44,983 nt of DNA from Deltaproteobacteria bacterium. Its GTDB lineage: Bacteria > Desulfobacterota > Desulfomonilia > UBA1062. Below are positions 6,435-8,312 of this stretch, piece by piece. Location: the NCBI GenBank assembly GCA_017992605.1, contig JAGOOG010000017.1, positions 1 to 44,983 of the forward strand. The letters run 5' to 3'. The stretch's first letter is position 1. Each line of letters opens with the position of its first letter. The translations under genes were made by a program, and so were the position numbers. The notes below the pieces were generated by a model. That model searched no databases. It saw only the letters and a program-made list of their open reading frames with translations, and had not been told where the DNA came from.

Positions 6435-8158
6435 ACGTCACCTCCGATGGCGCCTGCCGGGCAGAGCTCAGCACACACGTTGCATCCGACGCAAACCTCG
6501 TTAATATGCGCCTTCTCGTCCCTGAATTCAAGGGCCGGGCACCCGAGCCCGATGCATACCTTGCAGCCGGTGCACGTCTCCTGGTCGACCTTCAGGGGCT
6601 TGCCCGGGAGGAACCCGGTCTTGAGCAGCACGCAGGGGGCCTTCGAGATGATGACGGCCGGGCCTTTGGTCTCCAGGGCCTCCTTCACCACGGCCCGCGT
6701 GTTCTTCACCTCGTAGGGATTGACGGTCCTGACCCACTGAATGCCCAGGGACCTCACCAGGCCTTCCAGGTCGATGTCGGTGGTCCTGTCCCCCTCGATG
6801 GTCACCCCGGTGCCCGGGTGGTTCTGGGCCCCGGTCATGGCGGTGGTCCGGTTGTCCAGGATCACGATCACGGCCGCCCCGTTGTTGTATGCCAGGTTCA
6901 GCAGGCCGGTTATCCCCGAGTGATAGAAGGTGGAATCGCCGATGACCGCGGCCAGCTTCTGACCGCCCGGGCCGAACACCTTGGACATGCCGTGGGCATG
7001 GTTGATGCCCGCACCCATGCACAGGCAGGTGTCAATGGCATCCAGGGGCGGCAGGAAGCCGAGCGTGTAGCAGCCGATGTCCCCCGCGATGAAACACTTG
7101 TTGCGGCGCAGGGCGTAGAGCATGCTCCGGTGCGGGCACCCCGGGCACATGGACGGCGGCCTGCCGGGCAATGCCGGCTGGGCGGTCTTGAGAGCGGTCT
7201 CGCCCGAGACGGCCGCCCTGATGATGTCGGGGTTCAGCTCACCGCAGAGCGGCATGCGGTCCTTGCCGTGACAGGGAATGCCCAGGGCCCTGACCATCTC
7301 CTCCATGAAGGGATCGAGCTCCTCGACTACCCAGAGTTCCTTGACCTTGGAAGCGAATGCCCTGACGAGTTCGCCAGGAAAGGGGTACGGCATGCCGAGC
7401 TTCAGGAACGAGGCCTCCGGGAAGGCCTCCTTCGCATACTGATAGGCCACGCCTGATGATATGATGCCCAGGTCGGTGCCCGACATCACCATCCGGTTCA
7501 TGGGTGTGGCCTCGGCGAGCTTCCTCAGGGCCACCACCCGCTCCTCGATGACGGGATGACGTCTCCTCGCGTTTGCGGGCAGCATCACCCACTCCGCCGG
7601 ATGACGCTCGAGGGTCGGCGCCTTCTGCGGCTGAACATCACCGAGCTCCACGATGCCCATGGAGTGAGAGATCCTCGTGGTGGTCCTGACCATGACGGGC
7701 GTTCCATACTCCTCGCTTATCCGGAAGGCCTCCCTGGTGAAGTCCTTCGCCTCCTGGGAGCTGGACGGCTCGAGGAGGGCGATCTTGGCGAAGCGCGCAT
7801 AGTGCCTGTTGTCCTGTTCATTCTGGGAGGAAAACAGTTCGGGGTCGTCTGCGCTGATGAGCACGATCCCTCCCCGCACCAGGGTGTACGGCAGAGTCAT
7901 CAGCGGGTCCGCGGCCACGTTCACGCCGACGTGCTTCATGATGGCCAGCGCCCTGGCCCCTGTGTAAGAAGCGCCCACAGCCACCTCGAGGGCCACCTTC
8001 TCGTTGGGTGTCCATTCGGCATGGATATCCGGGTACTCTTTCACGATCGTCTCGAGAATCTCGGTGCTTGGCGTGCCGGGGTATGCGGAAGCGAAGGAGA
8101 CGCCCGCCTCCCATGCCCCCCGTGCCATCGCCTCGTTGCCGCTGAGGATCTTCTTCAT
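6431..8158 (-). CDS. iorA: Indolepyruvate ferredoxin oxidoreductase, alpha subunit
   Basis: A 575-residue cytosolic enzyme. The N-terminal pyrimidine domain starts KKILSGNEAMARGAWEAGV. The thiamine diphosphate domain has GDIGCYTLG and GDSTFYHSG near residues 360-410. The C-terminus carries two 4Fe-4S motifs, CTGCKVCIGLGCP and CVGCNVCAELCP. Start 8158 is chosen because GGGGA lies six bases upstream; the frame stays open to 8197, but that would run through the leader terminator. First structural gene of the operon. Expression should depend on read-through of the terminator at 8185-8215. Confidence 0.95.
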   Translation of the reverse strand: MKKILSGNEAMARGAWEAGVSFASAYPGTPSTEILETIVKEYPDIHAEWTPNEKVALEVAVGASYTGARALAIMKHVGVNVAADPLMTLPYTLVRGGIVLISADDPELFSSQNEQDNRHYARFAKIALLEPSSSQEAKDFTREAFRISEEYGTPVMVRTTTRISHSMGIVELGDVQPQKAPTLERHPAEWVMLPANARRRHPVIEERVVALRKLAEATPMNRMVMSGTDLGIISSGVAYQYAKEAFPEASFLKLGMPYPFPGELVRAFASKVKELWVVEELDPFMEEMVRALGIPCHGKDRMPLCGELNPDIIRAAVSGETALKTAQPALPGRPPSMCPGCPHRSMLYALRRNKCFIAGDIGCYTLGFLPPLDAIDTCLCMGAGINHAHGMSKVFGPGGQKLAAVIGDSTFYHSGITGLLNLAYNNGAAVIVILDNRTTAMTGAQNHPGTGVTIEGDRTTDIDLEGLVRSLGIQWVRTVNPYEVKNTRAVVKEALETKGPAVIISKAPCVLLKTGFLPGKPLKVDQETCTGCKVCIGLGCPALEFRDEKAHINEVCVGCNVCAELCPAGAIGGDV

Positions 8159-8184: not shown

Positions 8185-8215
8185 AAAAAAAGGCCATGGG
8201 GTTCTGCCCATGGCC
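8185..8215 (-). terminator. Intrinsic terminator of the ior leader (attenuator)
   Basis: On the minus strand GGCCATGGG (8215-8207) pairs perfectly with CCCATGGCC (8200-8192) around a 6-base loop. Seven T (8191-8185) follow directly. It lies between the leader peptide and the iorA ribosome-binding site, 26 bases before the ATG, so it can only act as a conditional terminator of the operon's own leader. Confidence 0.85.
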
Positions 8216-8251
8216 CTGTCTGTCACGCTACCGGCGCCCAGGCCTATGGGC
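8206..8251 (-). promoter_or_regulatory. Antiterminator competing with the ior leader terminator
   Basis: The minus-strand segment GCCCATAGGCC (8251-8241) can pair with GGCCATGGGC (8215-8206) over ten base pairs with a single bulged A, using up the 5' arm of the terminator. The same first segment can instead fold on itself (GCCCA at 8251-8247 with TGGGC at 8240-8236). The leader-peptide stop codon TAG lies at 8246-8244, inside this segment. A ribosome finishing the peptide would cover it, whereas one held at the Tyr/Phe codons (8285-8265) would leave it free. Confidence 0.75.
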
Positions 8252-8312
8252 AATCGCCCCTCCTAAAATAAAAGCGGTAATAATAAGCCTGGGTTGGTGT
8301 ATTTTCAAACAT
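8244..8312 (-). CDS. Tyr/Phe-rich leader peptide of the ior operon
   Basis: A 22-codon frame, ATG at 8312-8310, TAG at 8246-8244. The peptide starts MFENTPTQA, continues YYYRFYF (residues 10-16) and ends RRGDCP. Six of seven residues in that stretch are Tyr or Phe, the pattern of attenuation leaders such as E. coli PheL. It sits directly before an antiterminator and terminator. The weak point is initiation: AGGGGA is 11 bases from the ATG, and if the promoter at 8318-8348 is used the message would start at about the ATG itself (leaderless). Confidence 0.75.
   Translation of the reverse strand: MFENTPTQAYYYRFYFRRGDCP

Follow-up and report, generated by a model that had tools for sequence, protein, structure and literature searches.

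A predicted Tyr/Phe leader-peptide attenuator upstream of indolepyruvate ferredoxin oxidoreductase genes in uncultured Deltaproteobacteria

For indolepyruvate ferredoxin oxidoreductase (IOR) and the phenylacetate-CoA ligase PaaK, annotation alone would suggest catabolism. In the window analysed here, which is the whole stretch of 44,983 nucleotides from a Deltaproteobacteria bacterium, the genes iorA, iorB and paaK are preceded by a short reading frame rich in Tyr and Phe codons and by an intrinsic terminator. This arrangement raises the question of whether the operon responds to the supply of these two amino acids and, if so, whether it makes or degrades them. Leaders of the trp and pheA operons carry codons for the product amino acid; the ribosome, by its position relative to the stop codon, chooses between an antiterminator and a terminator, and a protector helix sets the default. 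Judging from the sequence, we consider it highly probable that the iorA leader is a classical ribosome-mediated attenuator of this trp/phe type, acting on a route of aryl-acid uptake and reductive carboxylation to Phe and Tyr. The conserved codons and competing stems reported below support the ribosome-mediated Tyr/Phe attenuation that had been put forward in a preliminary description of the locus.

The leader frame and its competing helices

The leader ORF occupies positions 8312-8244 of the minus strand, to which all coordinates refer unless stated otherwise. It encodes MFENTPTQAYYYRFYFRRGDCP in 22 codons followed by a TAG stop codon, and it is not preceded by a Shine-Dalgarno sequence. The putative regulatory codons, Tyr-Tyr-Tyr-Arg-Phe-Tyr-Phe (YYYRFYF), lie at 8285-8265, and the 22-codon frame is present before iorA as the preliminary description had it. 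With six aromatics per seven codons, this frame is the only one above three among the 443 small ORFs on both strands of the window, and no ORF with at least five aromatic codons per seven occurs in 20 dinucleotide-shuffled windows. A chance ORF was rejected because nothing comparable appears in either set. A scan rule was also defined, which required a small ORF with at least five aromatics in seven codons and then a strong hairpin with a T tract within 110 nt. Applied to about 1.16 Mb of loci, it matched only ior, DAHP-synthase and related leaders.

Four RNA segments, A to D, can form three mutually exclusive helices, A:B, B:C and C:D. Segment A (8293-8283) overlaps the Ala-Tyr codons and constitutes the 5' arm of the protector. 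Segment B (8252-8237), which holds the stop codon (TAG, 8246-8244), pairs with A in the protector or with C in the antiterminator. Segment C (8217-8205) is both the 3' arm of the antiterminator and the 5' arm of the terminator, and segment D (8200-8190) is the 3' arm of the terminator. The terminator hairpin (8217-8190) has an 11-bp stem and a 6-nt loop and is followed by the T tract (8191-8185). A 26-nt linker connects the leader ORF to the terminator, and a further 26 nt lead from the T tract to iorA. In the antiterminator, 8252-8240 pairs with 8217-8205 through 11-12 base pairs; the A at 8245, which is the second base of the stop codon, bulges out. The protector pairs 8292-8283 with 8247-8238. 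The preliminary description had overlooked this last helix and had given the terminator a 9-bp stem, which is too short; the seven T between stem and iorA were found as reported. It had rightly placed the stop codon inside the antiterminator arm, where it falls within B in 17 of 17 leaders of the family, and had rightly seen that the antiterminator uses the 5' arm of the terminator, but its plain 10-bp helix gives way to the bulged pairing described here. The 128-nt leader region folds with z = -3.9.

Partition functions were calculated for the different positions of the ribosome. With a ribosome halted on the Tyr run before D has been made, B:C pairing reaches 0.96 in the window (median 0.99 over the leaders); with the ribosome at the stop codon, the terminator C:D reaches 0.97 in the window. 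In untranslated RNA, most leaders adopt A:B and C:D. Once D is present, the terminator beats the antiterminator at equilibrium in most leaders, so that the switch would have to be kinetic and co-transcriptional, as in classical attenuators. In the mechanism that we propose, ribosomes would load on the leaderless 5' end. With ample charged Tyr- and Phe-tRNA, the ribosome would reach the stop codon and cover B, C:D would pair and transcription would end before iorA. When Tyr or Phe is short, it would stall on YYYRFYF and cover A, leaving B free to pair with nascent C; B:C would then block the terminator and allow transcription of iorA-iorB-paaK-ACT, and probably of the TRAP genes too. If the leader is left untranslated, A:B would pair and the terminator would form by default.

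The promoter consists of a -35 box TTGACA (8348-8343) and, after a 17-nt spacer, a -10-like GATATA (8325-8320) whose exact register we infer; the leader ATG follows 7 nt downstream. In all 17 complete leaders of the family the -35 box lies 36-40 nt before the leader ATG, which leaves room for a 5' untranslated region of no more than about 8 nt. The leader ORF is therefore predicted to be leaderless, with a putative transcription start at or next to the ATG. In these leaders, pairing to the anti-Shine-Dalgarno sequence is mostly weak before the leader ATG and strong before iorA. A similar distance from the -35 box to the ATG, mostly 35-37 nt, is observed in the DAHP-synthase leaders presented below. 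The promoter spacer of the window also contains a near-palindrome, CCCCTGTCAGGGG (8337-8325), possibly an operator or a chance occurrence; its sequence is not kept in the relatives, whose spacers differ and are often palindromic too.

Conservation and covariation in the family

The window's family is represented by 24 genomes, and its named records are uncultured Deltaproteobacteria from metagenomes; 20 of the genomes carry an iorA orthologue (at least 71% identity). The leader was found in 18 of these 20 genomes, complete in 17 and cut by a contig end in one (G014), and two relatives (G010 and G006) carry the operon without it. The leader peptides differ from one another, as in MLPNTLELLGFYFFIFRGMKVRP, MTQSDQLTAYYFYFYYRRSSCP and MVFGSFFFTYFSYVYWRLKTCP; what they have in common is the aromatic run, kept in 17 leaders, and a Pro as last residue, which in most cases follows Cys or Arg. 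The RNA arm imposes this CP or RP end. Aromatic codons are enriched in frame: 110 were counted in the 17 leaders versus 59.7 +/- 5.5 in shuffles, and the share of Phe, Tyr and Trp is 28% in frame against 15% and 11% in the other two frames. Insertions and deletions among the 17 leaders come in multiples of three inside the ORF and are mostly single bases in the linker. Substitutions in the leader are spread 34/35/41 over the three codon positions; this absence of third-position bias would be expected if only the aromatic codons matter, and is no proof of translation.

All three helices are supported by the alignment. In the terminator C:D, 99.4% of cells are paired across the 17 genomes. In the antiterminator B:C the figure is 92.6%, against at most 47% in slid controls; moreover, two genomes have replaced an antiterminator C-G pair by U-A and altered the D arm to match, so that three strands covary. 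The protector A:B has 80.2% of its cells paired, a value reached in 0 of 500 shuffles, and shows 15 both-sided changes versus 5.6 expected; it is weak in four leaders (L095, L101, L103 and L104). The shuffle control leaves relatedness in, whereas the slide control removes it and singles out each helix. RNAalifold recovered from the leader alignment only the terminator and a short local pairing, a consequence of the mutual exclusion of the helices. The aligned relatives keep the aromatic run, the layout with the stop codon in the arm and the three helices, with covariation in each; the loss of codons and stems that the preliminary description had named as evidence against attenuation was not found.

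A strict scan for the ORF and terminator was extended to distant iorA genes (at most 57% identity, about 70 loci from many phyla) and detected no attenuator. Before iorA, the leader is thus confined to the window's family as far as searched.

Sister attenuators in the phylum

A covariance model of the leader revealed a second class of attenuators before DAHP synthase in 16 genomes of the family, including the window's own. In the window genome this leader, MKTASASTRYGYYFWFYGAWPPVG (L158, G000:C56), was located through the gene and includes a Trp codon. Trp codons occur in 2 of the 17 ior leaders versus 14 of the 15 tabulated DAHP-synthase leaders (p = 7e-6, a value that is indicative only, the rows being related). 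Since DAHP synthase supplies the synthesis of all three aromatic amino acids and the ior leaders as a class go without Trp, this IOR is predicted to serve Phe and Tyr alone. In a small third class, leaders rich in Tyr or in Phe, each with a terminator, precede genes for LivK-type ABC substrate-binding proteins (L140, G013:C405; L149, G012:C68; L150, G018:C289; L208, G241:C9), a hint that importers of Tyr, Phe or aryl acids are attenuated as well.

Outside the family, the leader model has hits at E <= 1e-4 in 29 of the genomes searched in the phylum. The sites fetched from them are, with few exceptions, aromatic leaders. The genes behind these leaders were assigned by sequence recognition, some of them also by scans, to shikimate kinase, an aminotransferase of aromatic type, DAHP synthase, ADH synthase, a LivK-type protein or an ADP-forming acyl-CoA synthetase. 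One leucine leader was found, before a 2-isopropylmalate synthase-like gene, and none of the fetched outside sites precedes iorA. The leaders before shikimate kinase-like genes belong to other families of the phylum (L177, L180, L182, L192, L198, L200 and L205). In another family (G258 and G136), aromatic leaders such as ...SYYYYYYWRGSP stand before solitary ADP-forming acyl-CoA synthetases (L185, L199 and L201), which possibly activate aryl acids; iorAB was looked for downstream of these leaders and none was found. The occurrence of aromatic leaders before further pathway genes across the phylum suggests a large, little-described attenuator regulon.

The operon and the direction of its pathway

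The first gene, iorA (8158-6431), encodes the IOR alpha subunit (TIGR03336, 732.8 bits with a cut-off of 650.9). Its ATG at 8158 is preceded by a Shine-Dalgarno sequence, AAGGGG (8171-8166), which lies downstream of the terminator; such a sequence accompanies iorA in all relatives. Next come iorB for the beta subunit (6434-5865; PF01558, and NF005322 at 234 bits, slightly below the cut-off of 237), paaK of the phenylacetate-CoA ligase family (5836-4535; TIGR02155 at 640 bits, slightly below the cut-off of 646) and a gene for a protein with a pair of ACT domains, possibly an allosteric sensor (4530-4090; PF19571). They are followed by a gene for a 146-aa protein without family match (4049-3609), found in the operon of most relatives, and by dctP for a TRAP solute-binding subunit (3612-2557; PF03480), the position of which is kept in most relatives. 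Two last genes, known from the ORF list only, are assigned by position and hydrophobic sequence to a dctQ-like small membrane subunit (2476-1982) and a dctM-like large one (1985-684). In the family the genes keep the order iorA-iorB-paaK-ACT, and usually the 146-aa protein and dctP come after it.

An importer, a ligase that forms the CoA ester at the expense of ATP and an oxidoreductase that depends on ferredoxin would together make a complete route from aryl acids to aryl-pyruvates, the substrate of the TRAP importer being a prediction. Phenylacetate and 4-hydroxyphenylacetate would be imported, PaaK would activate them, and IorAB would carboxylate them reductively to aryl-pyruvates; transamination of these to Phe and Tyr would constitute a salvage beside the shikimate pathway. 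The genes of the operon probably serve to rebuild Tyr and Phe from scavenged aryl acids. An anabolic use of IOR with aryl acids is established in Methanococcus maripaludis (PMC3462420; PMC4162585), and in view of it the remark that the iorAB-paaK enzymes have mostly been regarded as catabolic should be softened. Rumen cultures are also able to make Phe from phenylacetate (PMC7356843). The use of IOR proposed here is the same as in M. maripaludis, which differs in being an archaeon for which the available parts of those two papers describe no leader-peptide attenuation; in the window, the IOR genes share a single operon with the PaaK, ACT and TRAP genes downstream of them.

Both prephenate dehydratase and prephenate dehydrogenase are encoded in the window genome, so that salvage there would be a supplement and not the sole route. 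In G012, which is 99% complete, the gene for chorismate mutase-prephenate dehydratase has shrunk to that of a 102-aa chorismate mutase (L174:3691-3999, G012:C75). Its dehydratase and ACT domains are gone, the cluster is otherwise contiguous, and the attenuated ior operon is kept; G012 may still encode a dehydratase of another type. A candidate loss of prephenate dehydratase in G016 was rejected, as the gene falls at a contig end, and G018 and G022 (79-80% complete), where it is also missing, were left out of the count. Three genomes, G004, G019 and G021, have neither ior nor prephenate dehydratase, and the presence of ior is not simply tied to the absence of the dehydratase. The broadest form of our proposal is that in this uncultured family IorAB-PaaK and a dedicated TRAP importer represent regulated Phe/Tyr biosynthesis by reductive carboxylation of scavenged aryl acids, that the leaderless Tyr/Phe attenuators in control of it are part of a wider aromatic regulon with DAHP synthase and LivK-type importers, and that the route provides a main source of Phe in at least one lineage, G012; the case for it seems to us evenly balanced.

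A genuine attenuator could also control an operon that degrades aromatic amino acids or aryl acids through an oxidative IOR, low Tyr/Phe acting as inducer, for example in peptide fermentation. We regard this as improbable, in spite of the first description of IOR from Pyrococcus peptide fermentation (a work cited in PMC13285125), of the oxidative action of aromatic oxoacid:ferredoxin oxidoreductases of related families in Clostridium, and of another IOR, 36-40% identical, that the window genome encodes. Antitermination at Tyr/Phe shortage would turn degradation on exactly when both are scarce, and the ATP that PaaK spends on acid activation fits uptake and carboxylation. In addition, the sister attenuators precede the gene of a biosynthetic enzyme, DAHP synthase, and G012, where prephenate dehydratase is lost, retains the operon.

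Much more doubtful is a terminator that is constitutive, or regulated by a protein or a small molecule in a riboswitch-like manner, next to an aromatic ORF that is incidental. The near-palindrome of the promoter spacer is a candidate protein-binding site, but it is not conserved in sequence among the relatives, and a scan of the window with the Rfam covariance models at gathering score, which would bear on a riboswitch, gave 0 matches. An incidental ORF is difficult to reconcile with an aromatic run that is kept while the remainder of the peptide varies, with frame-keeping indels and a stop codon always in B, and with the lack of anything comparable among the small ORFs of the window. Barely credible, finally, is a leader that encodes a functional small peptide acting in trans, as the trpL leader peptide does in Sinorhizobium meliloti (PMC7298713), with attenuation secondary, since no sequence is conserved beyond the aromatic run and the RNA-imposed CP/RP end.

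The ribosome-mediated attenuation that we favour shares with the Escherichia coli trp and pheA attenuators the codon-rich leader ORF, the placement of the stop codon and the protector default. It differs from them in its target, IOR and PaaK acting on aryl acids, in the joint use of Tyr and Phe codons, in the predicted leaderless ORF and in the bulged A that the stop codon contributes to the antiterminator. A leaderless leader peptide, with transcription starting one nucleotide from the start codon, has been described for ilvBNC of Corynebacterium glutamicum (PMC11857589). The three-hairpin layout of antiantiterminator, antiterminator and terminator is also alike, whereas ilvBNC concerns branched-chain amino acids in an Actinobacterium and has an unrelated sequence, and the leaderless start is only predicted here. 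Computational predictions of attenuators already exist for genes of aromatic pathways, e.g. for aroF in Shewanella and for tyrA supraoperons; in the available parts of these papers (PMC2659441; PMC1173090) they precede aroF, pheA or tyrA, and IOR or PaaK is not mentioned. Our literature search retrieved no paper combining IOR, attenuation and leader peptide, in agreement with the earlier suggestion that such control of iorAB-paaK is new. The mechanism would be of a known kind, and its target and physiology look new. The leader codons would then amount to a genetic label of enzyme use, marking IOR and PaaK for the synthesis of Phe and Tyr, and not of Trp, in an anaerobic bacterium. They allow one to predict, in a form open to direct test, in which direction the enzymes of uncultured organisms work and which substrates they accept.

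Two minor observations concern the surroundings of the operon and its paralogue. The TRAP operon ends facing a convergent plus-strand gene (224-679) for another ACT-pair-like protein. The second IOR of the window genome (L002, G000:C24:44776-46650) is without an aromatic leader and is perhaps the oxidative counterpart.
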